Positions 4,277 through 39,402 of a DNA stretch of 64,000 bases are shown one piece after another (within the stretch, counting starts at the first letter, position 1; each line of letters starts with the position of its first letter). The notes beneath the pieces were generated by a model. That model was not told where the DNA came from, ran no database searches, and saw only the letters and a program-made list of their open reading frames with translations. The stretch spans positions 1,984,001 through 2,048,000 of the forward strand of contig NZ_CP042431.1 of NCBI RefSeq assembly GCF_007970185.1, read 5' to 3'. Source of the DNA: Pseudobacter ginsenosidimutans. GTDB taxonomy: Bacteria > Bacteroidota > Bacteroidia > Chitinophagales > Chitinophagaceae. A program made the translations under genes and the position numbers.

Positions 4277-4290
4277 TTTAAGATAAATTC

Positions 4291-5395: not shown

Positions 5396-5426
5396 AAAAT
5401 ACGGCCTGGTAAGAGAGCCGTATTTT
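5396..5426. terminator. Bidirectional terminator between the ATPase pseudogene and metH
   Basis: Ten-base arms 5396-5405 and 5417-5426 pair perfectly (AAAATACGGC with GCCGTATTTT). The A/T-rich ends give a U-tract in both directions, so it can serve the convergent ATPase remnant (+) and metH (-). Confidence 0.8.
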
Positions 5427-5448
5427 ATTCAATTTGTTAATGATTTTC

Positions 5449-18697: not shown

Positions 18698-18772
18698 GGT
18701 CCTGTAGTTCAATGGATAGAATAGAAGTTTCCTAAACTTTTGATACAGGTTCGATTCCTGTCAGGACTACCA
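18698..18772 (+). tRNA. tRNA-Arg (anticodon CCU), integration site
   Basis: A full cloverleaf can be drawn: acceptor stem GGTCCTG with CAGGACT (one G-T pair), TA at 8-9, D-arm GTTC...GAAT, anticodon stem GAAGT/ACTTT around loop TTCCTAA (anticodon CCT), T-arm ACAGG-TTCGATT-CCTGT, then A and an encoded CCA. It reads AGG codons. The 3' half is shared with the end of the serine recombinase gene on the other strand, which marks it as the attachment site of the island to the right. Confidence 0.95.
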
Positions 18773-20288
18773 TACCGGAAAGCAGCAAATTTTTGCCTGT
18801 TTTCCGGTTTTTTGTTTTGCTGAAACCCGCGTCCAGCATGCATATCCGCGAAACCACTTCATTGAGCCGAAGAGTTCGATGTTGGGTTCCGTCAAAAATG
18901 AGTTTTCCGGGGAACATCGAACTCACGATGTTGCGTTTTTCAGGGATGGTTCCGTTGATGTAAGCCTGGTCAATGGCAATTAAGTTGTGAATCCCCTTCT
19001 GGAGCAGCCCTTCAATTCCCTTCTCCCGTTCAGGAAGTTTCGATAATTGTTTCTCCAGCTCGGTTATCTGCTTGGTACATTCCGTTTTGACAATCTGGAA
19101 GTCTTCATAGGAGAATTGGTTATCGGCTGCTTTGTTCCGGGTGGTGTTGATGCGGGTGGTCAGCTCTTCGATTTGAGAAAGAACTTGTCTTCGTTCTATG
19201 CTCATACTGCTGGTTTGTTGCTTATATGCTTCGTGAAGAAGTTCTGCATACAGATCGCAGTAAGCTGGATTGGGTGCATATTTCTTTAGTTCTTCGATGA
19301 AGCGTTCATTCGCATCTTCAGCTTTGAACCTGCATCCGCAGGAGGAATTACAATGATAATAATAGTAAACACTGTACGTCCCTTTTGAGCCACTTCCGGT
19401 AAGCATTTTGCCGCAGTTAGGGCAAATGAGAAAACCACGAAGGGGAAGCTGATCTGGAACAATCACTTTGGTTCCGGGCCTGCTTTTACGGTTCTTTCCG
19501 CAAAGAATGTCCTGCACTTCGTAGAACAAACTTTCAGAAATGAGTGGTTCATGTTGCCCATTTACTGTTATCGGATCTTCATCTTTGAATTTAGGAATTT
19601 GAATTTTACCACAGTAGACCGGGTTCCGGATCACATTCCAAAAATTACTCCTACTGCACTTCAATCCCTTCTTGTTTGCTTCCTTTCGAATCTGATCGGC
19701 GGCAAAATGCCCTTTGGCAAGCTCTTCAAAAACCCTTCTAAGAATAGTGGCTGCTGGTTCTTTTGGCGCAATATATTTCCGACCATCTTCGGTTATCTTG
19801 TTGGCATAGCCTATCGGTGCAGTTGCCATCCATCGTCCCTCCTTTTTTGCTCTGCGCATTCCGTGGAAGACATTTAAAGCTCTCCTGTCATTCTCGACTT
19901 CCGGCGCGGCGAGATAGAAAGCAAGCATCATTTTGTTTTCAGGAACGGAAAGATCGAGCGGCTGCTCAACAGCCTGCGGCTCAACTCCCATTCTTCGCAA
20001 TGTGCTGATCATTTGGTAAGCATCGCCGGCATTGCGGCTAAAGCGATCCCATTTGCTGAAAAGAACAAGATCACTTTTGCCTTTTCTCTTGCTGAGGTCG
20101 CTCAATAGTTTTATCCATTCAGGGCGATTGAATGTTTTAGCTGAGTGGTCTTCAAAGACTGTTTTCCTTACTTGTATGTTATTGACCCTACAATAGTTTT
20201 GTAGCATTTCTTCCTGGTTGCGCTGTGAATAGCCTTTGTCAGCTTGTTCATCAGTACTCACCCTGATATACAAATCTGCTATTTTCAT
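18732..20288 (-). CDS. Large serine recombinase (site-specific integrase), intact
   Basis: About 518 residues from ATG 20288 (a longer frame exists, but MKIADLYIRVSTDEQ is the family start and lies 10 bases after the small gene upstream). The resolvase domain has the catalytic Ser in YIRVST and conserved Arg residues in KWDRFSRNAGDAY. A recombinase domain follows (PIGYANKITEDGRKYI, GLKCSRSNFWNVIRNPVYCG). A zinc ribbon (CPNCGK with CNSSCGC) and a coiled coil complete the protein. Its last 12 codons are the antisense of the tRNA-Arg 3' half, so insertion at the tRNA supplies the gene's own end. It should integrate and excise the element to its right. It is the only intact one of three related copies in the window. 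Confidence 0.95.
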   Translation of the reverse strand: MKIADLYIRVSTDEQADKGYSQRNQEEMLQNYCRVNNIQVRKTVFEDHSAKTFNRPEWIKLLSDLSKRKGKSDLVLFSKWDRFSRNAGDAYQMISTLRRMGVEPQAVEQPLDLSVPENKMMLAFYLAAPEVENDRRALNVFHGMRRAKKEGRWMATAPIGYANKITEDGRKYIAPKEPAATILRRVFEELAKGHFAADQIRKEANKKGLKCSRSNFWNVIRNPVYCGKIQIPKFKDEDPITVNGQHEPLISESLFYEVQDILCGKNRKSRPGTKVIVPDQLPLRGFLICPNCGKMLTGSGSKGTYSVYYYYHCNSSCGCRFKAEDANERFIEELKKYAPNPAYCDLYAELLHEAYKQQTSSMSIERRQVLSQIEELTTRINTTRNKAADNQFSYEDFQIVKTECTKQITELEKQLSKLPEREKGIEGLLQKGIHNLIAIDQAYINGTIPEKRNIVSSMFPGKLIFDGTQHRTLRLNEVVSRICMLDAGFSKTKNRKTGKNLLLSGMVVLTGIEPVSKV

Positions 20289-20298
20289 ATGCAATGTT

Positions 20299-20454
20299 TT
20301 ATTTGTTTTCCTCTCGTAGATATTGGGCAACTACAATGTTTGCTAGTGCCCGGAGAAATGAAATAATAGCGGTTGCTTCCTCGATTGTTAGCTCTATTCC
20401 TTTCTTCTGGAATAAGGCAATCACCTTTTGTGGAGTTAGAGAACTTTCCTGCAT
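20299..20454 (-). CDS. Small protein upstream of the serine recombinase
   Basis: A 51-residue frame starting ATG 20454: MQESSLTPQKVIALFQKK, then GIELTIEEATAIISFLRALA and a C terminus NIVVAQYLREENK. It is 10 bases upstream of the recombinase and clearly co-transcribed. I recall small proteins of this pattern (a helix, 'ELTIEEA', then 'LRKLANIAVNQYL'-like) next to Bacteroidota recombinases, which makes coding likely; the role, possibly as a recombination accessory, is unknown. Confidence 0.65.
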   Translation of the reverse strand: MQESSLTPQKVIALFQKKGIELTIEEATAIISFLRALANIVVAQYLREENK

Positions 20455-21970: not shown

Positions 21971-22804
21971 ATGGAACTCCATCCAGCATTAATTGAAATT
22001 GTCAAGGTGATTTTGGGTGTGAATGCTTTGTCGCCTGATAGAATTATTTTACTCGGTTATATCAACGCTGAAGGGCAAAGCTTTTCAATCTTAAACGGCT
22101 TCTGCGAAGAGGTAACAGATTTTGTGGATGTAAATCTGCTGGTAATCTCAGAAAATGCTAATGCAGATAGGCTACGATACATTGATATGATCGAGCAACG
22201 ATGCAAGCCTTTTGCCAGGATTATCTGCATTATTTTATCTCGCTCGGATATCCAAAGTCAGATGGAATACGGAAATCGTTTAGCGATAATTGCGCTTCAA
22301 TCGGGCAAGGTTTTATATCAAAAGTGGGAAACGGCACCACATATTCAGAAAGCCATTTATGAGGCCGTAATTAAGGAAGGAAAAGAAGTTGAGCTGGTTT
22401 CTTGGTATAAACGGTCACATTTATTCCTTCAAATGGCAAAGGTCCAATTCAATTTAGGAAACTGTGGTATGGCTGCTTTTTGTATTCATCAGTCTTTAGA
22501 ACAGGTACTAATAATGCTTATCATCTCTGTCTGTGGTTATAGGATGGGCATTCATAATCCAGATCGATTGCTTAGAATGTTGCGCTTTCATAATGATGCG
22601 GTTGCTGACATATTCCCTAATAAAACAGCAGAAGAAAAAGGACGGTTGTGCTTGTTAAAGAAGGTTTACATTAATTACAGGTATCGAGTCGAGCTGGAGG
22701 TTACTGAGGACGATATTCGATATTTTTTCACGGAATTGGGAAAGCTTCACGCAATGGCAGATCGGATTATATACCCTAAAATCACTGCACCGATTCTCAT
22801 TTGA
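21971..22804 (+). CDS. HEPN-domain protein with nucleotidyltransferase-like N terminus
   Basis: This 277-residue protein has two parts. Residues 1-130 look like a minimal nucleotidyltransferase fold (IILLGYINAEG, later DFVDVNLLVIS), but the GSxxxxxxxDxD signature is damaged: no Ser after the Gly and only part of the Asp pair. Residues about 145-270 are a HEPN domain (KRSHLFLQMAKVQFNLGNCGMAAFCIHQSLEQVLIML, then YRVELEVTEDDIRYFF), with an Arg-rich segment RMLRFH that may stand in for the Rx4-6H ribonuclease motif. HEPN/MNT pairs form toxin-antitoxin and other defence modules; a fused, partly degenerate version is frequent in Bacteroidota. Its position beside the defence operon fits such a role. 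Confidence 0.7.
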   Translation: MELHPALIEIVKVILGVNALSPDRIILLGYINAEGQSFSILNGFCEEVTDFVDVNLLVISENANADRLRYIDMIEQRCKPFARIICIILSRSDIQSQMEYGNRLAIIALQSGKVLYQKWETAPHIQKAIYEAVIKEGKEVELVSWYKRSHLFLQMAKVQFNLGNCGMAAFCIHQSLEQVLIMLIISVCGYRMGIHNPDRLLRMLRFHNDAVADIFPNKTAEEKGRLCLLKKVYINYRYRVELEVTEDDIRYFFTELGKLHAMADRIIYPKITAPILI

Positions 22805-23263: not shown

Positions 23264-24448
23264 TTATTTTCGCCTATCACCTCGCTTCTCTTTCACCAAA
23301 TGACCATTGATTTGTTTTGGATTTAATGATAGCTTTTCCTTTAAAAAAAATTGCATGGCTAAAGCAACAGCCTGTGCCATAGGAACAGGTACTCCATTAC
23401 CAATCATCTTAAATTTCTTAGACAAAGGTAGTTCTGGGGGCAAAATATATTCTTCGGGAACGCCTTGTATCCTAAGAGCTTCTCGGACAGATATTCTTCT
23501 GTGCTGATAGGGGTGTAAATGCACTTCATTGTTACCATAACAAGCTGTTGGACTAAATCTAAACCTATGCAGCCGCTTGAATGAGGGACGGTTAGTTTGA
23601 CCTTCCTGTATTTTTGCTAATTTATCTTTATCAGAATATAAATTAAAATATTCCTTTGCGTTTGCCACCTTATTTAAATCATTGATGGGCACAAGACAGC
23701 TTTCAACGCATAATTCTATCGGGATTTTCTCGGAATTTACTAACTGTTTGCCAAAATCATCAGCAATTGGCCAGTTATATTTAGTAAAAGCATTTTCATA
23801 TTTGCTGTTGACAGGCCACGTAAACCAATGACCATCCTTCCTTTTTTTAACGGAATCTTTATTGACATTATCCTTCTTTATCCCAGTAAAAAACACACGT
23901 TCACGGAATTGCGGCACCCCAAAATCAAGCGCATTTAAAGTTTTGTAATCAATGTGATAGGTTCGTTTTACCTTCCGTAAGAGTTTAATTAAATACTCTT
24001 TGTTTGATTTTTGCTTTATCAGGCCAGTGACATTTTCCATAACGAAAAATGTTGGTTGCAATTCAAGGATTTTATTAAAGAACTGGATTGTAAGCTTTCC
24101 TCTTTCCCCTTTAAATCCCCCCCTGTTTCCGTAGACGCTAAAGTCTTGGCAAGGAGGGCCTCCAATAACGCCAAACTTTTCCGGCTTTCCACTGGGAAAA
24201 GCTTCCTGTATTATGGACGGCACTGTTATATCAACTATGGATTTGCTATTGAAAATTTCCGCCCTGATGCCATTACCTTTTGATTTCCTCCAAGAAGTAA
24301 TACCAGCAGAATGAAGCTTTGCAAAAAGTTCATTATTTTCATTTGTCCAAACAATTTCAAAGCCAGCCTGCTCAAACCCCATATCAAGGAAGCCTCCTCC
24401 TGAATAGAACGAAATGACGGGGATTCTATTTTCCTTCTTCTTACTCAT
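23264..24448 (-). CDS. druM: C5-cytosine DNA methyltransferase of the Druantia-type operon
   Basis: A 394-residue Dcm-type enzyme. Motif I is FYSGGGFLDMGF (14-25), motif IV GGPPCQDFS with catalytic Cys100, motif VI MENV with Glu138, motif VIII near DFGVPQFRERVFFTG, and motifs IX-X are RRISVREALRIQGVP and MIGNGVPVPMAQA. The target-recognition region between VIII and IX is short. It methylates cytosine in an unknown motif. The start overlaps the end of the nuclease gene upstream by 8 bases, so it is the last gene of a four-gene operon. A C5 methylase beside a DUF1998 helicase is the mark of Druantia type II (DruM) and also of DISARM class 2; the helicase form favours Druantia. Confidence 0.9.
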   Translation of the reverse strand: MSKKKENRIPVISFYSGGGFLDMGFEQAGFEIVWTNENNELFAKLHSAGITSWRKSKGNGIRAEIFNSKSIVDITVPSIIQEAFPSGKPEKFGVIGGPPCQDFSVYGNRGGFKGERGKLTIQFFNKILELQPTFFVMENVTGLIKQKSNKEYLIKLLRKVKRTYHIDYKTLNALDFGVPQFRERVFFTGIKKDNVNKDSVKKRKDGHWFTWPVNSKYENAFTKYNWPIADDFGKQLVNSEKIPIELCVESCLVPINDLNKVANAKEYFNLYSDKDKLAKIQEGQTNRPSFKRLHRFRFSPTACYGNNEVHLHPYQHRRISVREALRIQGVPEEYILPPELPLSKKFKMIGNGVPVPMAQAVALAMQFFLKEKLSLNPKQINGHLVKEKRGDRRK

Positions 24449-25514
24449 AGATGATAGTAGTCTTAGTAGCTGTATAAATATTCCCTGACATACTTTTATT
24501 TAAATTAAAGATGTTCAATGTCTTCCCCTTGCAAAGGTTTAAATAATTAGATTTTTCTTCTCCAAACCCCGTTATAGTTATTTTTTCACCATTACAATCC
24601 AAATCAATTGAGATGTTTCCATTCATGTATGTCACCGTATTAGTAACTACACCTGTCACGTCATTAAAACTTTTATCAATTTTAAGGTATTCAATATAAT
24701 AACTGCATGCCGGTCGGAATAAACAAAACCTGCAATTTTGGGCAGAGGGATTTGCAATCGTTTCAAAGCGGAGTTCGCTGATCGTTAAATTAATCTTATC
24801 TAAAAGGCCTCGTGCTTCTTGATAAAGAACCGAGCACTCTTCTGGTGTAAAATCTACACTGTACTTTTGCTTTGCTAAATTGACGAGATTCAACTTCAAT
24901 GAAGTTCTTTTTGTAGATTCTGAATATAAAAAGGCATATAATTTTATTTGTTCCTGGTATTCTTCTTTGACATGATAAACAATCTCGCCATCGTCATCTA
25001 AACTTTCCATAGTAATGGAGCCTGTCTTGAAATCTATGATTTCTGTTTCATCATTGTCTTCTATGATCAAGTCTATCTTTCCTCCTAAAACTCCATCAGT
25101 CGTTTGAAACCATTTTTCAGAGATATACTTTTTATTGGCTACAAATGTACCCGTAGGCAGAGTCAATAGGTATTTTTTAAGTTGAATCTTTTTTATCCCA
25201 AAATCCTTAACATTGTTTTGCAAAGGCGTATAAAAGCCATTCCCTTCCAAAATTAATTTCTCTTCCATTGTTTGGAGTTCCGCAGAAAATCTTTGGTTCA
25301 ACTCATCCTCCGTCTTTATTTGATGTCTAGTAATTTGCTCGAGTAATTTATGGAAGAGGGTCCCCAAATACGCATTAGGGGATAAGGGCAAAAGATATCT
25401 TTTGTCAAACGCTTCTGCCAGCACAAGCTTATAGGCGCAATTTTTCATTGCGCTGAATTGACTTGGCGAAATTCTTTTTATTTGATTATATCTTATTGAG
25501 GTAATTTTATTCAT
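24441..25514 (-). CDS. RecB/Cas4-like nuclease of the defence operon (candidate DruF)
   Basis: About 357 residues from ATG 25514, which overlaps the helicase stop by one base (TAATG); an extra in-frame start lies 10 codons upstream. The PD-(D/E)XK core is complete: His55 in GTLFHKLLEQ, Asp148 in GGKIDLI, Asp161 and Lys163 in IIDFKTG, Gln189 and Tyr193 in QEQIKLYAF. Cys26 near the N terminus plus Cys261, Cys264 and Cys270 (CRFCLFRPAC) form the four-cysteine pattern that holds a [4Fe-4S] cluster in Cas4 and AddB. A beta-rich tail of about 85 residues follows. It should cut or resect DNA. By position it would correspond to DruF or DruG; I cannot tell which from memory. Confidence 0.85.
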   Translation of the reverse strand: MNKITSIRYNQIKRISPSQFSAMKNCAYKLVLAEAFDKRYLLPLSPNAYLGTLFHKLLEQITRHQIKTEDELNQRFSAELQTMEEKLILEGNGFYTPLQNNVKDFGIKKIQLKKYLLTLPTGTFVANKKYISEKWFQTTDGVLGGKIDLIIEDNDETEIIDFKTGSITMESLDDDGEIVYHVKEEYQEQIKLYAFLYSESTKRTSLKLNLVNLAKQKYSVDFTPEECSVLYQEARGLLDKINLTISELRFETIANPSAQNCRFCLFRPACSYYIEYLKIDKSFNDVTGVVTNTVTYMNGNISIDLDCNGEKITITGFGEEKSNYLNLCKGKTLNIFNLNKSMSGNIYTATKTTIIYE

Positions 25515-28500
25515 TATTTCATGATGAGTTTTTCGTAACACCACCCTGGTCGCCTGTGCAGGTTGAAGGAATCTATAATGCTTAATCGCCCTCCTGATGT
25601 TCTTATATAGTCGTCAATTTCCATTTTTATTTCAGCTAACCAGTTATCCACCCTTATATTCTTAAGATCCCAGAAAGGGTGAACAAACATTATAACATTT
25701 CTTTTTCTTGCCCCCCATTTAAGTACCGGCAAGCCGTTGAGTTCTTCGCACGATCCTAGGTCAAAACTTGAGGCAAAAGTGTTTCCTGCTTTTTGAATAA
25801 AAATAAGCCAGTCATTTAATTCCGTAAAAGGAGAAAATCTTTGGTCTGTACCGCATTTATATTCAGAATTGGTGAATAACCGTAAAAGGCCCAGTCCTAA
25901 TCTCCAATCAAGCAAACTGTGATAGTTCATATTCCTGTAAACCTTCAAACATTCGTAACATGCATCACTACAATTATCCTTGTGTCTTTGTGAATGGATT
26001 TTTCCTGTGTAAGATGATATGTTTGCAGGTGAAAGTGCGTCATTTACAATTGAGCTAAAGTTGTCAAATAGATATCTAACAAAACCAGAGCCGTTGGGTA
26101 ATTCATCAGTAAGAACGATTTCTGCGGTTCTTCTATCTGTACCGTCATCCACTTTCTTTAAGGTGATGTCAGCAATTTCAATTTCTGTCGGGTCAATGTC
26201 CAATTTGTCAGCAAGTATGCGCTGTATCAGAAAAGCTGCAGAGTAAAAAGCCGATCTCACACCGTATGACTGAGCCTTCACATGCATTTCATCAGTGTCT
26301 TTTGCAAACATATTCAGGTCCAATTCCAGTGGTACGGTTAACGGGGACAATCGAAAAATTTCAGTGGTCTTATTATTGGCCAAGGCGATTTGCTGTTCCT
26401 GCGAATTGGGTAGCGGGCTAAAATAACTTGAGTATCCGTTATTGTTAAACCCATTTGCTAGGTCGCTCAATATCCATTGATTATTGAATGAGAAAGTTTG
26501 GCCAGTAGGGAATCTGTTATTGGTGTTGAACATTTTACCATAATAGAAACGATCCGAATTGGTATTAATCCTCCAAGTGACATCCTTGTCAGAAAGGATT
26601 AAGACAGCGTTATCTACTAACTTGTTAGCGTCCGGATTTGCTGGATCTTCTACTTTTTCAGCAAAGACTGGTGGCCTGGAAATCATTAATTCTGAATCGT
26701 CTTTGACATCGCTTCCTAGGGAAAGGTTAGTTCTGTAGGCCCTTGGAGTTTTAATCATGAATTTGGCAAAAGTTGATGTGTTTTGGTTGCCACAATTAGG
26801 GCAAGCATCACTTTGAGGCTCATTATCTTCTGAATAAGTCTGATTAAACCCACATGATTTGCAGCGTACCATCCACCGATTTAAGGAGAAAGGCAATGCG
26901 TTTGAAGTTGCCACATTTGTCACTGTTTCAACTCCAGCTCTTCTGGTTTTGATAAAGTTGCTTGTGAAGCCAATGACTGTATGAATGGCCTTATCTTTCG
27001 TTTTTTGCGATCCCGGCGCAAACTCATATATAGCCATAGCTTGCGGCCTATCAATTGCAAGAAGCCCCAATCTTTCATTTATACCGTGATATAAATTCTT
27101 AACGGTTGTTGGCATACCGAACATCGGGAGGATGCCGCCTTCAGCAAGCTTTTCCGAAATGTCATTTGTGGCTATTTCATCATTATTTACTATAGTATTT
27201 ATTTTTCCAATAAATCCACTTGCCGAATTAAGGTCACATATCCAATCAACAAAATCACTTTTGTTGATTAACAGGATTGGGGTTATGAGAGTGTCAACTG
27301 TACTTTCGATTTTTTTCCTGTTATTAGTGACCCAAGCTCTTAATTGTATTTCGTAATTGGGCCAATTATCAATTTTGCCAAAGTCTCCGTGAACGCTCGG
27401 CTTTTCCTCATCATTATTCACATTTGTTTCAATTGTCAAAAATGCTTTTCTAAGAATTTCCTTTGACAACAGTCGTCTGAATATTCGCGGCTGTCCCATA
27501 GTAAGAAATGGTGTAGGCGGCGCATCTCCGGTAATCTTTTGAGGATTTGAAAAATAGTACTCGTCATGACTACGGCCTCGGCAAAACGTCAGGATGACGG
27601 AATATGCTTGGCCCCTTCTTCCTGCACGCCCGACACGTTGCTGATAGTTAAACCTCTGTGGAGGCATATTGCCAAGCATCACAGCTTGCAGAGCACCAAT
27701 ATCAACACCGACTTCAAGGGTCGTGGTCACGCTTAACAGGTCAATGATCTTGACCTTCTTATATCCTTCATCAGGTAAAATAATATTTCGAAAATGCCTT
27801 TGCCTAGTGAATTGGTCATCTGTTTGCCCGGTCAACTCCTCACAATGTAAGCGGATAGGTGGTCGTTTTTCGATTATTGCATTATAAGATAAATAGTTTT
27901 GTTCCCATATATTTTGACATACTTTGTCATTTGAATTATTCAATACAGTCAACGAGTAAGTACATATACCACCAGAGAAATGTAAGTGTGGCCGATTACC
28001 CCTTGGACTTGTCCAAACTGGGTCATTTGATGTAGCGATCTTAATAAAGAGTTCCTCGATAATAATTCCCCGGTCACCTCGCAACACGCCGATTCCTGAT
28101 AATGTATTAAAGCAGGCATCACCTAAAGCAGTTTCGTCTATTCCGTTTCTCTCAGCTACGCGCTTGATAAATTTCTTTAGATGACTTGGCAGTCTAGTAA
28201 AATCTGTGAAATTAAATGGGTCGGTGTCATCACTGTAATTATGTTTGTATTTATCGCCTAATATCCTGATACAGGAACTTAAGATTTGTGTGAACATTTC
28301 TTTGGAAACTCCTAATGAAGAGGCTTCATCTACGATTCTTTGACGTTTTGCATCAATAGTAATATAACCTAAAGCCGATGACTCAAATGAGTAAAACAAT
28401 GAGCGGAAAAATATATTTGCAAGGTTTGAAAATGTGCCACTTTTTATGTCGGCAATATATGTGGAGTCTGCACCTGAAGCCCATCTAAAATTGGGGAAGT

Positions 28501-31500
28501 CAATAAGATCATACCATGGAACAAATTGGTTGTTAAGAAGCCTTGATTGGATAGAAAGGTCTTGCCCTCCAGGATTAATCCCCAAAAAAGCAAAACGTCG
28601 TATTAGTGGGGCGAGGTTTATTGAGTTTGTAATATCAACAAGTTCCCTGGCATTAATGATCCTTGCCCTGTATTGATTCAGAGCGGTTATCGAATCTGCT
28701 TTTTCACGAAGCTTCGTTGTATTTGCTTCGGAATAATTTGATTTGTCAAACAAATCTTCAACGTCATCATATACTTCTTCATTTTGAGCACGCAACAATG
28801 CTTTTTGGGACTCATTATTAGCATCTAGTGCTTCAATAACCTGAAAACGAAATAAAAGATTAGAATGTAACTCTGTTACTAAAATCTCTCTAAGTAAATC
28901 TATAAAATGATTACGTTCTATACCGTTTGCTATTTGAGCTGCGTCCTCCCTGCTGTCAGAAAATACAATTAATTTTCTTTCTTTTTCACCAGCGGGCAAA
29001 CGATACATTAGTTCCTTTGCAAAAATTTGGGTCGTTTTGGCGAAACCTGTCCTAAATCCTCTGACAGGACTTGTTTTTGATTTTTGATGATCGTTTTGCC
29101 GCTTTTGATGATTAATTCCGCAAGCAGGGCAAACACAGGGTAACCCGCGGTGCGTTTCCACCATGTTACCGGCAAGTGCCGGAATATTTGCAATATCATT
29201 TTTTGTACCATCCTTGACAACAAATAATCTTCCTTTTACCCATTGATCTGGTTCCTGTTCAGCCTTTTCATTACTCATATAGACATCACCTGAAAAGACA
29301 TTTAATGAAGCAGGTTCCCAATAAGCCTCGAAATTTGCTTGATCAATTCCACCGACCGTGGTTTGTCGCCAATAGCCACTAGGCCAGTCTTGTGGGACAT
29401 ATTCCTGTTGGCCTTGGGGCCAAAAAACAGCAAATTCCTGATAGCTTCTTTTCTCAACAAGTTTGCCAGGGGTCTTTTCAGGTATGCCTTCAATATTAGG
29501 GCTGATAGGTAACAGTTCAAATGAATTATTTACGCCAGTCAGCCTGCTTCCACCAAAAAAAGTTGTTCCGCAATTATCACAATACAAAAGTTCCAACACC
29601 CTATATCCTTCGTCCGATTTGATTCTTGTTGCTGGGTATAATCTACCCGCCGTCCTTTGGATATCCGAAAACGCGTTTTCGGTTTCATTTGCTTTGACCG
29701 AAGCCCAAATACCTTCAATGTTCCTGAAAAAATAATGAAAACGGAAACGTGGCAATTTGGTAAGTGGATGCTTGGTTTCTATGTGTTTATAAGCAGGTTC
29801 ATCCAACATTGCTCTTGAAATCAATAGACCTCTTAAAGCTTTTCGAACCATATGTTGGTCTAGGCACTGTTCAAAAACCGACTCCGAAAAATATATTCCT
29901 TCTCCAGTGTCTCCCATTGCACGTATTGTACAGACTGCTCTGAAAATGCCGTCAATCTTACACGCCGAATAAAGTCGCTCCCTCAATTGGACTGACGGAT
30001 GAATAAGAGTTTGTAAAAGCCGGTGTGCTCCGAATTCGGTTGATGCTGGTATTCCTAATGTTAGTGACAACTCATTTGCACTTTGTTCGCATATAGCTAT
30101 GAAATGCTCATCATTTACATTCTCTCCAGCTCGATCATAAGAATCAGCGATGCTTATGAATGGGGCCAAAGGTAATTTTTGTTCTGCTTCTGTAATTTCA
30201 TTCACCGGATTGTTCTTGCCAGATACAATCTTGAATGGCTTCACATTGTTGTCAACTCCAAAAAAATCTTGTAAAAATTTTACACTTTCTTCTTTCCCTG
30301 GCTCCAATGAAGCACTCGACGCCAATATCCTAAGCTGAGGATGATGCGGATGCAAGCCAATTCTGTCCAGAACGAGTTTCAGTAGGTAGGCAACCTCAGT
30401 TCCTTGAGTACCCCGGTATAAATGCAATTCATCGATAATGAGATGAAAGACTCTTTTTTTCTTCTCCTGCTCAACGGCTGCATGTGGTAAATCCTCGCAT
30501 GCGAGCCATGATTTCGTCTGTTGAAAGATGCCAGCGTCTACATCCCTCATTAGCATAATACTTAACATTGAATAATTAGTAATAAAAATGTCTGGTGGCG
30601 AAACTTGCATATCAAAACGACATCGCATTTCACCTCCATCCAAACGCTGAAAAAATGATTTCAATTCAATTGCTTCATTACCGGTAATTCCATTTTCTTC
30701 GATATACTGCGCAACTCTGGTGGCATCCCTCTCGATAAATTGAAGTTTGTCTTTGAGTTCGTTTATTTTATTAAGATTAATTCCAACAGACCCATCATCT
30801 TTGGTGACTTTTAACTCACCAGGAATTGGTGTGTCGCCATTATATCTGCCGAAGTAAATAGAATTTCCTTTTGCTGATTCGTTCAGCCACATTCTGGTTT
30901 CGTCCGAGTCCAGTGCCTTACGGAGCCTTGACATTTGGTCTTCTACCAAAGCATTCATTGGGTATAATATCAACGCACGTATTCCGGCAGGCCGTGTCTC
31001 ATGGCTTCTTTGTTGAGCATTAGTCGAAAGCTTATAATCATTTGTGGGGTCTGCTATCTGTCTTGGAGTTAATTGATTCCACCAATTATCTGTATTGGCA
31101 CCTTTTACCCCGGAAGGGCTCCAAGAGGTTAACTCCCTAGCAAGTTGAGCAAATAAAGGAAGGAGAAACGATTCTGTTTTTCCCGAACCTGTTCCGGAAG
31201 TAATAATACAATTATGGCCTGCTAATGATTCTCGCAACATTTCTGTTTGGTGGTCATATAGTTTACCATCAGCTGGGAATAGCCCTTTTTTTACCAACTC
31301 TTTAAAACAAAACAGTTCTTGTTCTGTCAGGGCATTTGACAGGTCACCTATGGTTAAGTCATCTATTACTTTATCACTCGATAAATAGTCTGGAAGTGGT
31401 TCTATCCAAGGTTCCCTATATAAAACTTTATCGAAATTCAGTAGATGATATCTTTCATTTTCAATACCTGTGAACTTTGTTCCAAAAGCTGTTTTTACAT

Positions 31501-31555
31501 ATCTTATGAAGTTTTCCTTGATTATGTCAAATGAGCCTACTGGATCTTTCATCAT
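25514..31555 (-). CDS. druE: Giant DEAD/DEAH-like helicase with DUF1998 domain (DruE-like)
   Basis: This 2013-residue protein has a superfamily 2 helicase in its first 1450 residues: a Q-like LYDHQTEML, Walker A SGTGSGKTES (120-129), motif II IIDELHLYRG (DELH rather than DEAH), SSASL as motif III, TTTLEVGVDIG and QRVGRAGRRGQAYS as motifs V and VI. A four-Cys zinc site (CKSCGF...CPNCGNQ) sits near 1585. The C terminus is the DUF1998 region with a Cys cluster (CSDACYECLKVYRN). Size, motif spellings and the C-terminal Cys cluster are those of DruE, the shared protein of all Druantia types. The start lies 8 bases after the 942-aa gene. Confidence 0.9.
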   Translation of the reverse strand: MMKDPVGSFDIIKENFIRYVKTAFGTKFTGIENERYHLLNFDKVLYREPWIEPLPDYLSSDKVIDDLTIGDLSNALTEQELFCFKELVKKGLFPADGKLYDHQTEMLRESLAGHNCIITSGTGSGKTESFLLPLFAQLARELTSWSPSGVKGANTDNWWNQLTPRQIADPTNDYKLSTNAQQRSHETRPAGIRALILYPMNALVEDQMSRLRKALDSDETRMWLNESAKGNSIYFGRYNGDTPIPGELKVTKDDGSVGINLNKINELKDKLQFIERDATRVAQYIEENGITGNEAIELKSFFQRLDGGEMRCRFDMQVSPPDIFITNYSMLSIMLMRDVDAGIFQQTKSWLACEDLPHAAVEQEKKKRVFHLIIDELHLYRGTQGTEVAYLLKLVLDRIGLHPHHPQLRILASSASLEPGKEESVKFLQDFFGVDNNVKPFKIVSGKNNPVNEITEAEQKLPLAPFISIADSYDRAGENVNDEHFIAICEQSANELSLTLGIPASTEFGAHRLLQTLIHPSVQLRERLYSACKIDGIFRAVCTIRAMGDTGEGIYFSESVFEQCLDQHMVRKALRGLLISRAMLDEPAYKHIETKHPLTKLPRFRFHYFFRNIEGIWASVKANETENAFSDIQRTAGRLYPATRIKSDEGYRVLELLYCDNCGTTFFGGSRLTGVNNSFELLPISPNIEGIPEKTPGKLVEKRSYQEFAVFWPQGQQEYVPQDWPSGYWRQTTVGGIDQANFEAYWEPASLNVFSGDVYMSNEKAEQEPDQWVKGRLFVVKDGTKNDIANIPALAGNMVETHRGLPCVCPACGINHQKRQNDHQKSKTSPVRGFRTGFAKTTQIFAKELMYRLPAGEKERKLIVFSDSREDAAQIANGIERNHFIDLLREILVTELHSNLLFRFQVIEALDANNESQKALLRAQNEEVYDDVEDLFDKSNYSEANTTKLREKADSITALNQYRARIINARELVDITNSINLAPLIRRFAFLGINPGGQDLSIQSRLLNNQFVPWYDLIDFPNFRWASGADSTYIADIKSGTFSNLANIFFRSLFYSFESSALGYITIDAKRQRIVDEASSLGVSKEMFTQILSSCIRILGDKYKHNYSDDTDPFNFTDFTRLPSHLKKFIKRVAERNGIDETALGDACFNTLSGIGVLRGDRGIIIEELFIKIATSNDPVWTSPRGNRPHLHFSGGICTYSLTVLNNSNDKVCQNIWEQNYLSYNAIIEKRPPIRLHCEELTGQTDDQFTRQRHFRNIILPDEGYKKVKIIDLLSVTTTLEVGVDIGALQAVMLGNMPPQRFNYQQRVGRAGRRGQAYSVILTFCRGRSHDEYYFSNPQKITGDAPPTPFLTMGQPRIFRRLLSKEILRKAFLTIETNVNNDEEKPSVHGDFGKIDNWPNYEIQLRAWVTNNRKKIESTVDTLITPILLINKSDFVDWICDLNSASGFIGKINTIVNNDEIATNDISEKLAEGGILPMFGMPTTVKNLYHGINERLGLLAIDRPQAMAIYEFAPGSQKTKDKAIHTVIGFTSNFIKTRRAGVETVTNVATSNALPFSLNRWMVRCKSCGFNQTYSEDNEPQSDACPNCGNQNTSTFAKFMIKTPRAYRTNLSLGSDVKDDSELMISRPPVFAEKVEDPANPDANKLVDNAVLILSDKDVTWRINTNSDRFYYGKMFNTNNRFPTGQTFSFNNQWILSDLANGFNNNGYSSYFSPLPNSQEQQIALANNKTTEIFRLSPLTVPLELDLNMFAKDTDEMHVKAQSYGVRSAFYSAAFLIQRILADKLDIDPTEIEIADITLKKVDDGTDRRTAEIVLTDELPNGSGFVRYLFDNFSSIVNDALSPANISSYTGKIHSQRHKDNCSDACYECLKVYRNMNYHSLLDWRLGLGLLRLFTNSEYKCGTDQRFSPFTELNDWLIFIQKAGNTFASSFDLGSCEELNGLPVLKWGARKRNVIMFVHPFWDLKNIRVDNWLAEIKMEIDDYIRTSGGRLSIIDSFNLHRRPGWCYEKLIMK

Positions 31556-31563
31556 GATTGTAT

Positions 31564-34392
31564 TTAAAGTGATTTCAATTCTACGGTTTGACCAAGTTTC
31601 ATAAAAAAGTTTTGAATAAAAATACTTGGCACATTCTCATGTAAAACATACCACAATTGCCGACCATCGAGGTTAAGAGATTTAGTTAAGGGCATTCTTC
31701 CGCTAAGTAAAGCGACTGATTCTGCAAATAACCTAGGTAAAGGCAAGGAAGCAGGAATCGCCACTATTTGTTTTGAAGAATCATAAAATATTACTTGTCT
31801 GCCGGCCCACTTAATTGCCATGTACCGAGCCCAGTTCTTATCAACATTAAAGCATTTTCCGTTAACCCAAAGCTTGTGATAATATTCCCATTCCCTCAAT
31901 TTATACTCAACTAACGTATAGCTTGTGTCAAAATCAATAGAGCTTTCTTTTTCAAACCTTAAAGTTTGTGGATTGAATATCTTTCTCGCCCAATTGTAAT
32001 CTTCTGGAAAAGTTTCATTATTTGTAAATACGAACCGTTCGTATTCATCAATGCTAGCGGAAAATTCTTGCAACCCAAATTGCACAATCTCTTGTGAGTT
32101 GAAAATGATTCTTAATTCATTACACAAAGTTTTGAGCTCTCTCACTCCGTAACCTGTTTGTGGAGGCATACTTGCTGAAATGGTGATTGTATCTGGAATC
32201 AGAAATAAAGAGTTAGCTTCCTGTTGCTGATATATATCAACTACTAGGCCTAGTCTGGATGCCTTGCTTATTATTTTATCAATAAATACTTTATCTCTTC
32301 CTCCAATTAATAAGGTCTTTCTTCCTTGTTTTGTAGGAATAAGAATCAGTTGTGGTGGATTAACAACAATTCTATTGGACTGGTAATCGTAATCGAGGTA
32401 TCCGAGAAAATCATAAAGGCTAAGCGAAATTCTTTTTATCCGGGAAGGATTAATTGAATATTCTGCTTCATTTCCTGTTAATCCTATGCCATTTATATTT
32501 TCAAATACATCGTAAAATTCAAGGGTAGTAGCTTCTTTTTTTACCGTTAGATAGTTTAATAAGAGGTTTCCCCTTTCATTGAAGTACTCGGAAGCGGTAG
32601 GCATTGTTGAGGAGGGAAGCGAAATTGGCATGAAGTCAGGGACAAAACCCTGTTGCATTTTCCAGTTTATCCCAAAAACGTTACTTCCTTCAGCATATAG
32701 CTGCGTATTTCCATTGATAACTCTTCCAAATAAATCTCTTTTAGACAATAAGGAAGAATCCAAGCTCATGCATGCATTGTTGGCATTGATCACAGAATAT
32801 GCGATCTCGGGTCCAGGTAGAATTTCCTTTTGAAGGCGGATATAAAACTCTGCTTCAAGTTCGATGTCGTCAGGTAATTGCCATTTGTTTTCGTTAGTGA
32901 TTTTTTTGCCAAGGGTTATTCTATTTCCAGATTGTCGGAATTCAATATAAACTTCCTCATTGCCATCTGCATTTATCAACTCCACTTCTGGCAGATTTAA
33001 ATTCAGATAAGTCCTGAATCCAACCCGTAGGCCGCCAGCTAATTGTATTAATTTTCCTGAAGGTATGCTAAGTTGGTATATCTCAGGATGGCTTTTGGGT
33101 GGATATTGAAAAAAGAACAATTCATATCCATCCGGTAATCCTTCAATATCCAATTTCTCAAAATTGCTTGGTTTGAAGCATTTACCCCATTCGGTAATCG
33201 AATCGCCTAACTCTGTTCTGCATAATAAATACATTTTATCAGTCTTTGACAATACATCACTTTCAACCCAATATTGATTACTTAATTGGATACTTGCTCC
33301 GCTTCTAAAAAGGCGAATTTCTTTAGAGGGAAACCTGGCAATCCATCTATTAAATTCATCTTTTAACTCAAATTTTTCTCGGAACGGAAGCTTAATGGTT
33401 TTAGACCATCCTCGAGTTTCATAAATATTTTCAAGCCCATCGAACTTTAAGTCTACTGGGTAGTCATTGGAAGAATAGAGCCTGTACGAGAAATTTATTG
33501 TTTCTGTATTTTGATGTATTTCAAATTGAAGAAATAAGGGAGCAACGGTATAATTTCGTTTGATCTTTTCATCAGCCCCATTTTGTATAAGTTGATGGGA
33601 TTCTCCTTTCCATTTTTTGTACTCTCGGCTTGTTATTTCAATTATAGAATGCCCCAATTCATTTCTTTCATCATTTAGTAGGCGTAAAGTGCTATCATTT
33701 ACTCCTAAATATGTTTTTCCAAATTTCAGGAGTATCTTTTTTATCTGTTCTTCTGAATAAGTTGAACCAGGAACTAAGCCGGCCTCCAAGAATAACTCAG
33801 GTAACTTTCTAATCTCTTTGGGTGAAAAAAGACATTGTGAAAGAGGTTTGCCAACATATATCCAATTTGGATTGCCAAACTTTTTTAATTCAAAAATTCC
33901 AAGGTCGCAATTCTTTGTAATTATAGACCATTCTTCCAAGTTGTTCCATAGGTGGGAAATTTTTTGAAAATTGACGGAGGTTATTTTTTTTTGGACACGC
34001 TCGTTTAATACCCCGTTTTTCCTAAGAAATTCGTTTATCCGGCCATAATAATTGTTAGAATTGAAATTGCCGTTGTCAGATTCGGTCAAGGGGATAATAT
34101 ATAAAACCAGATAAGCGATATATGGAGGGAAAGATTGCCCGTCCCAACTTGCTGCAAGTTGTAAGGGACGGTCAATAGGAGAATAAGGCGATTGGGTTGT
34201 GCTAACGTGCTCATCGAATTTTATGGCATTTATGTAATCCTCCCAGATATCAGTATCATTGTTTTCTGGAAGATATTTCCTGCCAAGGTTTATCAAGTCA
34301 GACTTTGTTAAATAGAAATGTATATTCTTCCCTGCATTAGCAAGGGAAAAAAAATATCGGCTGATACAATCGTTCCAATCAAGATATTTCAT
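31564..34392 (-). CDS. Large protein of unknown fold in the Druantia-type operon (candidate DruG)
   Basis: A 942-residue soluble protein, first gene of the four-gene operon. No signal peptide, membrane segment or enzyme motif is visible. The first 200 residues are helix-rich and Tyr/Trp-rich (MKYLDWNDCISRYFFSL, then DRPLQLAASWDGQSFPPYIAYL), the middle is beta-rich, and the end has YKLREWEYYHKLW and KWAGRQVIFYDSS. Gly-rich nucleotide loops are absent. In Druantia type II the companion proteins DruF and DruG have no assigned activity; this is the better match for a purely structural or sensing partner. The low-G+C composition matches the rest of the operon and contrasts with the core genome on the left. 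Confidence 0.75.
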   Translation of the reverse strand: MKYLDWNDCISRYFFSLANAGKNIHFYLTKSDLINLGRKYLPENNDTDIWEDYINAIKFDEHVSTTQSPYSPIDRPLQLAASWDGQSFPPYIAYLVLYIIPLTESDNGNFNSNNYYGRINEFLRKNGVLNERVQKKITSVNFQKISHLWNNLEEWSIITKNCDLGIFELKKFGNPNWIYVGKPLSQCLFSPKEIRKLPELFLEAGLVPGSTYSEEQIKKILLKFGKTYLGVNDSTLRLLNDERNELGHSIIEITSREYKKWKGESHQLIQNGADEKIKRNYTVAPLFLQFEIHQNTETINFSYRLYSSNDYPVDLKFDGLENIYETRGWSKTIKLPFREKFELKDEFNRWIARFPSKEIRLFRSGASIQLSNQYWVESDVLSKTDKMYLLCRTELGDSITEWGKCFKPSNFEKLDIEGLPDGYELFFFQYPPKSHPEIYQLSIPSGKLIQLAGGLRVGFRTYLNLNLPEVELINADGNEEVYIEFRQSGNRITLGKKITNENKWQLPDDIELEAEFYIRLQKEILPGPEIAYSVINANNACMSLDSSLLSKRDLFGRVINGNTQLYAEGSNVFGINWKMQQGFVPDFMPISLPSSTMPTASEYFNERGNLLLNYLTVKKEATTLEFYDVFENINGIGLTGNEAEYSINPSRIKRISLSLYDFLGYLDYDYQSNRIVVNPPQLILIPTKQGRKTLLIGGRDKVFIDKIISKASRLGLVVDIYQQQEANSLFLIPDTITISASMPPQTGYGVRELKTLCNELRIIFNSQEIVQFGLQEFSASIDEYERFVFTNNETFPEDYNWARKIFNPQTLRFEKESSIDFDTSYTLVEYKLREWEYYHKLWVNGKCFNVDKNWARYMAIKWAGRQVIFYDSSKQIVAIPASLPLPRLFAESVALLSGRMPLTKSLNLDGRQLWYVLHENVPSIFIQNFFMKLGQTVELKSL

Positions 34393-35071
34393 GGTAAGGT
34401 TCGAAGGATAGTTAATGGAACTAGTAAGTTAAGGATTTTTTGTATTGTTTTAATAATCAAGTGCTTGAAGACTTCAGCTTCTTAAAAAAATCAAATTAGT
34501 CAATAACTTCAGCAATTTTTTAGATTGACTATGTCTTAGGCGCTATACAAAAAGAAAAAATATCTTTAATCTTACCCTTAATATTAGAAAATGAAGTTTA
34601 GTATTAATCTACTTGAATAGTATGATAAATGTCCTGCCAAACTACCAAACCGAAAAGGTGATTAAAAAAATCTTTTGTCCGATTTTTTTATAGGCTGAAA
34701 TGTAGGCTGGTGATGTATATGCGGGCAATGGCTTCATTGAGTCGGGAGGTTCGAGTATATGTTCCGTCAAAAGTGAGTTTTCAGGGAAAATTGAAGCAAT
34801 GAAAGTTCGTTTCGTGAATGTTTTTACGGACGTAGGTTTCGTCAATAACCAAGGGTTTTTCCACTTAATAACTCCTTGATTCCTTGCTCCTGCTCTGGTA
34901 GTTCAAATAGCTTTTTCAAATGCCGCAATGATAGGAAGACATTCTGCCTCTTTCTCCTATGCGATACTTCACGTGGTTAATTCAAGTATGAGACTCCTGA
35001 TCGAAAATGTCAAATAAATAATCGAATGGGTATGCGATTCCACGAATCCTTATTTATGATTTTTTGAAAAC
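34393..35071. other. A+T-rich junction with recombinase scar upstream of the defence operon
   Basis: 34393-34620 is A+T-rich with no coding sign and should hold the promoter of the defence operon, though I find no convincing -33/-7 pair. 34634-34660 is a decayed copy of the tRNA-recombinase junction (CTACCA-A-ACCG). 34650-34960 is the recombinase fragment described separately. 34960-35071 is featureless. Confidence 0.6.
34650..34960 (-). pseudogene. C-terminal scrap of a second serine recombinase
   Basis: About 300 bases match, with many changes, the last hundred codons of the recombinases at 18.7 kb and 38.1 kb: the minus strand shows the stretches for LPEQEQGIKELL, FTFDGTY-like and the 'NEAI' region, but frameshifts break every frame. 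It abuts a degraded tRNA-junction copy, as the other two recombinase genes do. I interpret it as the remains of a separate insertion event. Nothing of the catalytic domain is left. Confidence 0.75.
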
Positions 35072-36037
35072 CTAATAAACGTGGGCGAGATAACGGCTCA
35101 CAGTCCAAACATTATCTTCCATGTAAGTATTTTTACATGCTGCATGTATGCCTTGGTCGTCTGTGACCAATATCACCTTGGTACCATTATTTCTTTCCAG
35201 GAAAGTTTGATAGCATGCTGATGCCAAGATTTGAATATCGTTGAGAGTATTCCATTTCGGATTTGTGTAATCAGACAGCGCATCAACGCCATCTAGCATT
35301 TTCATAAATAAAGTTTGTAGGAGTACCAAAAGTGGTTCAAAGAATGTAAAAAAATCACTTAATGGCCGTTGAAATTTAGGATCAATATTTGTTATATCTA
35401 ATTTAATCTGGTGAACAGAATGCGCTCTATCTAACATGGAAAGGTTGAATAACATTAGTGCTTTTCCTGACCTAATATCTTTCAAGATTTTGGGTTTTGT
35501 TTTTTTATCTTTTTTGAAATGAGTCCAATCTACAATCCCGCCAGTATAGGATTTAATAAAATCTTCGAAATTATCTCTTATTTCCTTTTTATCATGTAGA
35601 ATCTGACTGCCTATTGCTAGTAAATTTTTCTTTTCTGGACTTATATTGTTGTCAGGATCTTTCGCAATTAATTCTAATGTTGCTAAAATTAGTCTATACG
35701 CCCCAAATAGAAGGGATGATTTCTGGAAATAAAATTCACTTAAAATTTCATTCAATGGAGGAATAAAAGAAATGCTGTTATTAGGCCCGCCTGGATTCGA
35801 TTGTGTATGATGATATTGAAGAATAAGAGCCTTCTTGCAATCCTCAAAATGTGGATCGGTTTCGTCACTAAGATGTCGCATCAATTCCATTGAAACTGTT
35901 ATACTCAAGAGGCTGGTACAATTGACACTTCTTTCTCTTATTCGCATCTCATTTGCGGTTGGGAGTATTTCTGCTTCTCTTTTTCCGGTCACCAGTTTTC
36001 TGTAAGCATTTGTATCAAGAATGAATTGAATGGCCAT
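35072..36037 (-). CDS. PIN-like domain nuclease (321 aa)
   Basis: The protein begins MAIQFILDTNAYRKL, giving Asp8 and Asn10 of the PIN motif. Glu51 (SMELMRHL), Asp267 (NDIQILASACYQT) and Asp293/Asp294 (VILVTDDQGIHAAC) complete the acidic set expected of a PIN ribonuclease. The helical insertion between residues 60 and 260 makes it far longer than VapC toxins (about 130 aa). It could cut RNA as a defence effector or stand-alone toxin. No antitoxin-sized gene is adjacent. It lies between two recombinase scars, so it belongs to an element of its own. Motif spacing is read by eye; confidence is moderate. Confidence 0.65.
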   Translation of the reverse strand: MAIQFILDTNAYRKLVTGKREAEILPTANEMRIRERSVNCTSLLSITVSMELMRHLSDETDPHFEDCKKALILQYHHTQSNPGGPNNSISFIPPLNEILSEFYFQKSSLLFGAYRLILATLELIAKDPDNNISPEKKNLLAIGSQILHDKKEIRDNFEDFIKSYTGGIVDWTHFKKDKKTKPKILKDIRSGKALMLFNLSMLDRAHSVHQIKLDITNIDPKFQRPLSDFFTFFEPLLVLLQTLFMKMLDGVDALSDYTNPKWNTLNDIQILASACYQTFLERNNGTKVILVTDDQGIHAACKNTYMEDNVWTVSRYLAHVY

Positions 36038-38103: not shown

Positions 38104-38127
38104 CTACCATACCGGAAAGCAGCAAAT
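38104..38127. repeat. Direct repeat of the tRNA/recombinase junction (att-like)
   Basis: 24 bases here are identical to 18767-18790, the last bases of tRNA-Arg and the end of the recombinase gene (CTACCATACCGG and onward). The left flank is different (GTTCGACTTCCCGC rather than the tRNA T-arm). It is therefore a candidate attachment site of a further element integrated by the same family of recombinase. Confidence 0.8.
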
Positions 38128-39402
38128 GTTGTCTGCTTTCCGGTTTTTTTGTGCGCTGAAATGCAGACTGGTGGTGTAGATCCGCCCGACGGCCTCATTT
38201 ATTCTTGTGGTTCGATATTGTGTTCCGTCAAAAGTGAGTTTTTCAGGAAATATCGAAACAATGATGATGCGTTTCTCCTCAATGCTGCCACGGACGTAAG
38301 TTTTATCAATAGCCATGAGTTTTTCCACGCCTCTTTTTAACAACCCTTCGATTCCTCGCTCCTGCTCTGGTAGTTCAAATAGCTTCTTTTCTAATGCGGC
38401 AACGATAGGAAGGCATTCAGCTTTTGTTACTTTTTGGTCTTCCGGATCGAGCTTTTCTTCAGACACAATTTTGCGGGTATTGCTGATACGGTGATTGAGT
38501 TCGTCGATCTGCTTTATGATTTGTCTTCGACCTGATCCCATCTCTTTTATTTGCTCTTGATATGCTTCGTAAATGACGGCGGCAATTAAGTCAGCATATG
38601 CAGGATGAGGTTTTAACTTCTTCAGTGTTTCTACAAATAGCTCATTTGCTTCAGGAGCCTTGTACCTGGCTCCGCATTTGGAAGTACAGTGGTAATAGTA
38701 GTATACGTCTGCTCTTCCTTTCGAGCCGCTGCTGTGCGTTTATTTCTTTTTCGGCCACTGATCATATCCCGCACTTCATCAAATAAGGATTCGGAAATAA
38801 TCGGCTCGTGCTGGCCTTCCACAATCAGGGGTTCTTCTTCTTTGAATTTCGGTATCAGAATTTTCCCACAATACACGGGGCTCCTGATTGCATTCCAGAA
38901 ATTGCTTCGACTGCATTTCAGCCCTTTCTTGGTAGCTTCTTTGCGAATCTGATCTGCAACAAACTGACCTTTCGCTATTTCTTCAAAAGCCCAACGAATA
39001 ATAGAGGCAGCAGGCTCTTTCGGTGTAATAAACTTGCGTCCATCTTCAGTTGATTTGTTGATATAACCTATGGGAGCTGACGCCATCCATCGTCCTTCTT
39101 TTCTGGCTCTGCGCATTTTCGACTTCAGGTGCAGCCAGATAAAAGGCAAGCATCATCTTGTTTTCTGGGATGGAAAGATCAAGCAGTTGCTCTTCTGCTT
39201 GTGGCTCTATACCCAATCGTCGGAGTGTACTGATCATCGGGTAAGCGTCACCGGTATTGCGGCTGAACCTGTCCCATTTGTTAAATAGGATAATATCTGT
39301 TTTTCCTTTGTGTTGGCGTTGGTCGGATAAGAGTTTGCTCCACTCAGGCCGGTTGAATGTTTTTGCCGAATGATCCTCATATACAACAGTTGATTCGAGC
39401 AA
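38104..39402 (-). pseudogene. Serine recombinase, inactivated third copy
   Basis: Three frames together cover most of a recombinase about 60-70% similar by eye to the intact copy. The N-terminal 50 residues, including the catalytic Ser, are missing: readable sequence begins at VVYEDHSAKTFNRPEW. A 32-base deletion between AATG repeats (around 39112, between EVEN and MRRARKEGRW) shifts the frame, and a second deletion near 38738 removes the zinc ribbon CPNCGK region. The C-terminal frame ends in KADNICCFPVW at the repeated att-like site. It cannot be active. It shows that a related element entered here and then decayed. Confidence 0.9.

Follow-up and report, generated by a model that had tools for sequence, protein, structure and literature searches.

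What kind of system is encoded by four tightly packed genes of Pseudobacter ginsenosidimutans, and does it belong to a described type? The genes lie in a stretch of 64,000 nucleotides (assembly GCF_007970185.1, contig NZ_CP042431.1, positions 1,984,001 to 2,048,000; hereafter the window), and an earlier reading made from the sequence alone (the sequence-only reading) had called them a Druantia type II-like anti-phage operon. The Druantia half of that call stands, with 1801 bits for the helicase against the DruE2 profile and 511 bits for the methylase against DruM2, but the type II half does not, as there is no DruG match and there is a nuclease, DruK. Judged by its sequence, the operon is a recurring DruK-bearing variant of Druantia that stands between the published types II and IV and fits neither. 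At a probability of roughly 60 per cent, it belongs to the Druantia II/IV lineage as an anti-phage operon whose four products would act together in the scheme outlined below, its activity, its complex and its phage target all being predictions.

The four open reading frames (ORFs) are present and co-directional, as had been claimed, and in transcript order they are:

31564..34392, minus strand: druFL, 942 amino acids (aa), DruF (residues 1 to ~585) fused to DruL (~605-942)
25514..31555, minus strand: druE, 2013 aa, YprA-family superfamily 2 (SF2) helicase with zinc modules and a predicted small C-terminal alpha/beta domain
24441..25514, minus strand (probable ATG start; ORF open to 25544): druK, PD-(D/E)XK nuclease, 367 aa from GTG and ~357 aa from ATG
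23264..24448, minus strand: druM, 394 aa, C5-cytosine DNA methyltransferase

The spacing had been given as 8 bases or an overlap, which is what is found. Eight nucleotides (nt) separate druFL from druE, druK and druM overlap by 8 nt, and druE and druK overlap by 31 nt if the nuclease begins at the GTG and by 1 nt if it begins at an ATG 10 codons downstream, where the DruE stop and the inner ATG read TAATG in the transcript. Eight of 10 DruK homologue rows start at that ATG in the alignment (all start sites being mechanically assigned), and the 1-nt overlap recurs in six other loci; the true druK start is probably at 25514, not 25544.

Assignment to Druantia turns on a DruE-type helicase of the YprA family, and the 2013-aa protein qualifies by both its profile scores (DruE2 1801 bits, DruE4 1642, DruE1 549, DruE3 290) and its retained motifs. 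The Walker A motif, DELH and C-terminal cysteine cluster noted earlier are all present, as GTGSGKTE at residue 121, DELH, and a Pfam MZB domain (E 5e-7) behind the DEAD and Helicase_C domains; we take MZB to be DUF1998 under a new name. Among the 27 DruE rows aligned here Walker A is kept in all 27, and motif II reads DELH in 24 and DEAH in 3. Solved chain 9wae scores 741 bits against the window DruE and 1618 bits against a type II DruE, so the closest solved helicase looks like a type II DruE, and the solved YprA chain 6znp matches the window DruE weakly. The preference for DruE2 over DruE4 does not settle the type, since a cyanobacterial type IV DruE shows it as well (1936 versus 1893 bits). 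Phage records yielded two weak partial matches to DruE. Together with the recurrence of the genes elsewhere, profile scores of up to 1801 bits make this set more than a chance assemblage. DISARM, the alternative named by the sequence-only reading, was rejected: DrmA reaches 37 bits on the helicase against 1801 for DruE, DrmB is not among the 22 families listed for it, and the 124 bits of DrmMII on the methylase are taken as general C5-methylase similarity.

The tail of DruE (residues 1875-2013) is modeled as a small alpha/beta domain, with a predicted local distance difference test score (pLDDT) of 76.3 and a predicted template modeling score (pTM) of 0.71. A fold search of the PDB with this model gave nothing at E<=0.001; its first match is the homing endonuclease I-Bth0305I, presumably Vsr-like (E 0.079, probability 0.90, template modeling (TM) score 0.41), and the rows after it are unrelated. 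The model would fit the Vsr domain, predicted to be inactivated, in which type I and II DruE end according to the available text of PMC12458937.

The 942-aa protein, left as an unknown by the sequence-only reading, indeed has no domain match in a Pfam scan, yet PADLOC identifies it. DruF4 covers residues 1-585 (5.6e-82, 274 bits) and DruL4 residues 611-909 (2e-47, 160 bits), so the protein is a DruF-DruL fusion; the type II profile DruF2 matches it too (4.4e-74). Separate DruF and DruL homologues stand side by side in loci L025, L026 and L027 and in cyanobacterial loci, and F/L identity drops to ~22% among complete loci. An AlphaFold2 model of DruFL (mean pLDDT 82.4, pTM 0.73) predicts a helical N-terminal part, a beta-rich middle and a mixed alpha/beta C-terminal part. 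No PDB or viral-model fold matched it at E<=0.001, and no solved chain matched its profile at E<=1. By title, about half of the 50 PDB fold matches shown are strings of immunoglobulin (Ig), fibronectin type III or similar domains; the best of them has E 0.011 and a TM-score of 0.08, which is a hint only of Ig-like structure in the model. Phage records gave no match to DruFL, and none turned up in viral contigs, where the pattern scan used detects only close relatives.

Three matches to DruFL lie apart from any DruE. A weak match in genome G003 (L028) was judged spurious, the protein carrying a secretion sorting tail. In L031 (positions 3381-6759) a DruF 48% identical to residues 1-569 of the window DruFL occurs without DruE in 19.5 kb, directly behind an AbiEi/AbiEii toxin-antitoxin pair and ahead of a 465-aa protein without Pfam or PADLOC match; it may serve another effector or be a remnant. 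L032 (10223-13210) encodes a 991-aa protein with weak similarity to DruF (9e-20) and DruL (4e-9), likewise without DruE in 19.5 kb, and a reverse-transcriptase-domain protein lies ~1 kb away.

The third protein had been read as a RecB-like nuclease, which its match to Pfam PDDEXK_1 (E 1.6e-20) upholds, and PADLOC matches it to DruK (4.9e-20; profiles PDLC00058-60 at 34, 59 and 70 bits). In all 11 DruK rows, the window included, H65, D158, D171-x-K173, Q199 and Y203 are invariant (GTG numbering), as are the cysteines C36, C271, C274 and C280, so that both the PD-(D/E)XK motif and the four cysteines are in place. The C...CxxC...C pattern is, we assume, that of the Cas4, AddB and Dna2 nucleases with a 4Fe-4S cluster, and by its residues DruK is probably a Cas4/AddB-like nuclease with an iron-sulfur cluster. 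Cas4 profiles of PADLOC match it at 29 bits. Against the PDB, the DruK profile found eight sequences at E<=1, led by AddA (1e-4) and including UvrD/Rep-type helicases (0.005-0.3), and a single DruK sequence found nothing at E<=0.1. DruK thus shares the H, D, D-x-K and QxxxY motifs and the cysteine pattern of AddAB, Cas4 and Dna2, but it is free-standing (~357 aa) and tied to a YprA helicase, with neither a UvrD fusion nor CRISPR genes.

The methylase call also stands (PF00145, E 1.2e-56). The protein matches DruM2 (PDLC00030) at 4e-154 and 511 bits, against 346 bits for the second-ranked profile, that of a type II methyltransferase, and C100, E138-N139-V140, Q180, R182 and R184 are invariant in 10/10 rows, the window included.

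Scanned with PADLOC profiles for the four type II components, the proteins therefore matched DruE, DruF and DruM but not DruG. From type II (DruM, DruF, DruG, DruE) the operon also differs in having DruK and in its order, which is FL-E-K-M rather than M-F-G-E, a difference that the sequence-only reading had anticipated. With type IV it shares DruE, DruF and DruL, and it differs in the fused F-L and in the presence of DruK and DruM; the accessible part of the source describes type IV (DruE, DruF, DruL) as being without DruM and DruG, and reports type II only in Proteobacteria (PMC8565338).

Relatives were sought in a phylum sample and a class sample of 395 genomes each, and DruFL matched 8/395 in either case, four genomes (the window's own among them) being in both match lists. 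A DruE scan of named genome contigs added five loci, from Ignavibacteria, Cyclobacteriaceae and Bacteroidales metagenome-assembled genomes and from two Microcoleus-type cyanobacteria. In a plasmid set, DruFL matched 4 records and DruE 73 (60 listed), of which 12 regions (4 from DruFL and 8 from DruE matches) were examined. Loci were annotated with phmmer and with hidden Markov models built for this analysis. From these relatives and the sequence-only reading, the window is assigned to the Bacteroidota.

The complete fused arrangement FL-E-K-M was found in the window and in L002, L003, L022, L023, L024 and L029, and the complete split arrangement (F, L, E, K, M) in L025 and L027. All nine complete loci keep one order and strand, so the genes are not separated in all relatives, the condition under which the sequence-only reading would have been refuted. 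Junctions are mostly short or overlapping, though they extend elsewhere to 99 nt (K to M) and 154 nt (L to E, in L027). L004 is cut and retains only E-K-M, and L030 is a fragment. In L026 (genome G221, contig 187) F, L, a DruE interrupted by an in-frame TGA, and K are present with no M found in the 14.4-kb contig, whereas every other K-bearing locus sampled has DruM; absence of M beside a broken DruE is what a self-marking role for DruM would predict, in a single case. The loci without K are L005 (M ~1 kb behind E), L006, L033, L034, L036, L055, L057, L058 (genome G032, a divergent F-L-E-M) and the broken L035. The last, on a Hymenobacter plasmid, is a Druantia locus that has fallen apart into numerous frames and has a divergent methylase encoded on its opposite strand. 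Type II order M-F-G-E was found in L056, L065 and L067, and in L054, where a restriction-enzyme gene separates M from F; L064 is a type II locus with F-G-E and M on the opposite strand. L066, on a Rubrobacter plasmid, holds M, a partial DruF, other genes, E and a DruK relative (6e-16).

The association of DruK with DruE is close. A DruK model run on 395 genomes matched 19 at E<=1e-10, with a clean gap between seven strong matches (E<=1e-100), each adjoining DruE, and 12 weak ones (1e-13 to 8e-11), presumably AddB-like proteins, whose frames span 769-946 aa and in most cases ~930. DruE-type helicases (E<=1e-20) occur in 13 of the 395, and the seven of these that also match DruFL are the same seven that hold a strong DruK, a coincidence with a chance of 3.5e-15 assuming independent genomes. 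Across 26 loci with DruE and F or FL, K is present in 12, G in five and both in none. DruM accompanies K in 11 of 12 loci, G in five of five, and four of the nine loci with neither, or 16/17 against 4/9 (Fisher p 0.0097; 0.046 for K alone; 0.0027 without L035 and L005). This count treats L004 as cut and omits the fragment L030, three loci that lack DruE (L028, L031, L032) and L059-L063, which have DruE relatives but no recognised F. The association of DruM is only suggestive, because the loci are related, the 26 do not represent all available loci and flanking sequence is truncated in some (L034, L057).

Type II DruF appears to correspond to DruF and DruL together. An alignment of type II DruF (4 rows) matched DruF over columns 8-472 of its 866 (probability 87%, E 4e-6), DruL over columns 527-825 (81%, 1.2e-5) and the whole of FL collinearly from 12 to 795 (86%, 4.8e-6), probabilities that are moderate and come from small alignments, so that the collinearity of both halves carries the argument. 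Control comparisons gave 0.1% for DruL with DruG, DruF with DruG and DruL with DruK, and 0.3% for DruF with DruM; the candidate identity of DruL with DruG under another name was ruled out on this basis. The long PADLOC DruF2 profiles PDLC00016 (3e-7) and PDLC00023 (1e-5) also match, near their C-terminal ends, ~45 residues of a cyanobacterial DruL. By this collinearity and these profile ends, DruL would be equivalent to the C-terminal portion of DruF in type II. Type IV then resembles a type II system that has a divided DruF and no DruG; one subunit seems common to both types, which would be set apart chiefly by G, K and M.

A tree of DruE (27 rows, rooted on L061 and L063; L004, cut at its 5' end, L026, with its interrupted frame, L035, in pieces, and L062, partial, were omitted) places the FL/F-L-E-K-M group (8 rows, support 1.0) as sister to K-bearing L027 and four cyanobacterial F-L-E rows. 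Type II and K-bearing L066 form the next branch, and the F-L-E rows L036, L055, L057 and L058 fall outside, so type IV is not one clade in this tree. Fused L024 and split L025 are sisters within the K clade, and fusion or fission therefore arose inside it. DruK on both sides of the tree may be an old gene lost several times or one gained repeatedly. There is some reason, a little short of even odds, to regard types II and IV as a single family in which DruL is a detached C-terminal part of DruF and an exchangeable effector slot holds DruG, DruK or nothing; the DruK form would then be a methylation-gated, AddAB-like degrader of phage DNA that arose by recruitment of a Cas4/AddB-like nuclease and a methylase. 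Such a relation of F and L to type II DruF would simplify classification, and under it DruF and DruL would be expected to function together as a single unit in both types.

It might instead be supposed that the operon is a type IV system (F, L, E) with a passenger restriction-modification pair, the methylase and the nuclease. DruF4 and DruL4 are after all the best profiles for the first protein, and the sister group of the DruE tree holds four K-less cyanobacterial F-L-E loci. That sister group also contains K-bearing L027, however, and K and M are fixed behind E, often overlapping, in 9/9 complete loci despite F/L identity as low as ~22%, while a strong DruK occurs nowhere else in the 395 genomes; passengers are for these reasons an unlikely explanation.

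In the DruK-bearing scheme preferred here, each product would take one step. DruFL (one protein here, two in some relatives) would be the partner of DruE and act as sensor, recruiter or scaffold in the manner of DruH, the probable sensor of type III, which has three Ig-like domains in the account available (PMC13192584). DruE would load on DNA with single strands exposed during phage replication and unwind it, as suggested by its conserved motifs and by the biochemistry of type III DruE, reported in the same partial text to unwind 3'-tailed DNA and to carry two phospholipase D (PLD) domains, one of them predicted active (PMC13192584). DruK would cut the unwound DNA in trans, a step suggested by its invariant residues and its 7/7 association with DruE, and DruM would protect the host's own DNA from the nuclease arm by methylating its cytosines, a role proposed on account of its linkage. 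Type III (DruH-DruE) shares the DruE core and a large partner with a proposed sensor role (PMC13192584 and PMC13316683, as far as accessible), but its DruE has its own predicted active PLD nuclease domain, whereas the cutter in the window would be a separate gene. Since the Vsr domain of type I and II DruE is predicted to be inactivated and the window tail is a small alpha/beta domain with a weak match to I-Bth0305I, a separate, intact-looking nuclease behind DruE would be the natural cutter. In the literature searched, parts of which were available only as excerpts, type III is the only Druantia that has been mechanistically dissected (PMC13192584, PMC13316683); with a nuclease that is encoded separately and has a clear set of active-site residues, single mutants could test the effector step directly.

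Several points weigh against this scheme. Kinship among the loci makes both the Fisher values and the coincidence value too optimistic. The DruK model includes rows from all seven strong DruK genomes, which leaves the lack of a strong DruK elsewhere as what that survey can tell, and the candidates scored per genome were two for DruFL and DruE and up to five for DruK, such that weak copies can escape. Six of the 13 DruE-type genomes lack a strong DruK, and eight K-less F-L-E loci exist besides the broken L035; DruK is consequently not needed for every Druantia. The putative iron-sulfur cluster is read from four cysteines, the proposed sensor role of DruFL is drawn by analogy and its fold search returned no match at E<=0.001, and DruM might be a bystander. 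Nor is the DruK gene wholly new, given that the window nuclease matches PDLC00058-60 and PADLOC-DB had thus already grouped such a Druantia nuclease; a literature search that reached a minority of subscription papers found no paper pairing 'druantia' with 'DruK', and one that names DruL with it. What is added here is the strict association of DruK with DruE, the exclusion of K and G in the sample, the relation of F and L to the DruF of type II, and a set of conserved residues in the nuclease.

Modification-dependent restriction, in which DruFL or DruE would read modified phage DNA and DruM would be a decoy or regulatory methylase, would accord with the placement of Druantia I and II among the CoCoNuT systems, a subclass of type IV restriction, in the portion of PMC12458937 available. 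The Pfam scan and fold search found no base-recognition domain in DruFL, though, and the CnuB-like part (taken to be DruG) is absent, which leaves this reading improbable.

More doubtful still is a plain type II system with a divergent DruG that escapes the profiles and with DruK as an extra. DruE2 and DruM2 are the best profiles, and the PADLOC DruG profile gives only a weak match for a type II locus of Rhizobium (E 2.3e-4); in the window's own genome, PDLC00024 found no DruG, a result weak on its own as no control genome gave a match. Yet the DruE2 preference is non-discriminating for the reason given above, and FL, E, K and M account for all four genes, which leave no space for another between them. 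With a DruG model made for this analysis, G is detected in 5/5 type II loci (four gave rows to it; L064, at 5e-55, did not) and in 0/11 retrieved K loci, the window itself having been scanned with PADLOC. DruL compared with DruG gives a probability of 0.1%, and the window falls outside the type II clade of the DruE tree.

A DNA repair operon resembling MrfAB or AddAB is scarcely credible: the YprA family does have a repair-related branch in the available text of PMC12458937, 6znp matches DruE weakly and the DruK profile finds AddA, but DruFL is patchy (8/395 genomes), DruE occurs in one of six genomes of the genus (its own), the operon sits in an island beside a serine recombinase and a candidate defense gene, and DruE is nearer to defense profiles than to anything else scanned.

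The features that appear to delimit the island are:

18698..18772, plus strand: tRNA-Arg (CCT), probable insertion site (ARAGORN; identity to relative G731 ends at 18771)
18732..20330, minus strand: large serine recombinase, likely the island integrase (Resolvase, Recombinase and Zn_ribbon_recom domains)
34642..34690, no strand assigned: degraded attachment site (att)-like repeat, 61% to 18767-18815 (repeat family D3)
38104-38152, no strand given: att-like repeat copy, 82% (repeat family D3)
38631..39402, minus strand: second serine recombinase, broken into two overlapping frames, one with the Recombinase and the other with the Resolvase domain

The first recombinase overlaps the 3' end of tRNA-Arg(CCT), and a 300-nt stretch of the broken one is 73% identical to it. 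In relative G731 (17.6 kb) identity ends at 18771 and returns at 36180-38108, and the operon segment was not found; relative G732 has the tRNA and the recombinase end, with no operon match in 17.4 kb. No DruE was found in the five remaining genomes of the genus, of which one is 88% complete. The recombinase at a tRNA, the att-like repeats at 18767, 34642 and 38104 and the failure to find the operon in these relatives together suggest that it is probably cargo of an exchangeable island. In 2-kb windows, guanine-cytosine content is 35-41% in the operon, 43-52% left of 19 kb and 44-49% right of 50 kb.

Three neighboring genes may be recorded. A RhuM-Fic fusion at 36667-37659 matches candidate defense family PDC-S23 (3e-146) and lies in the stretch common to G731. 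At 35072-36037 a 321-aa protein has no Pfam or PADLOC match, and its ends look PIN-domain-like by eye, which we offer as an impression. Between the recombinase and the operon, on the opposite strand (21971-22804), a 277-aa protein carries a C-terminal HEPN domain (3.7e-5).

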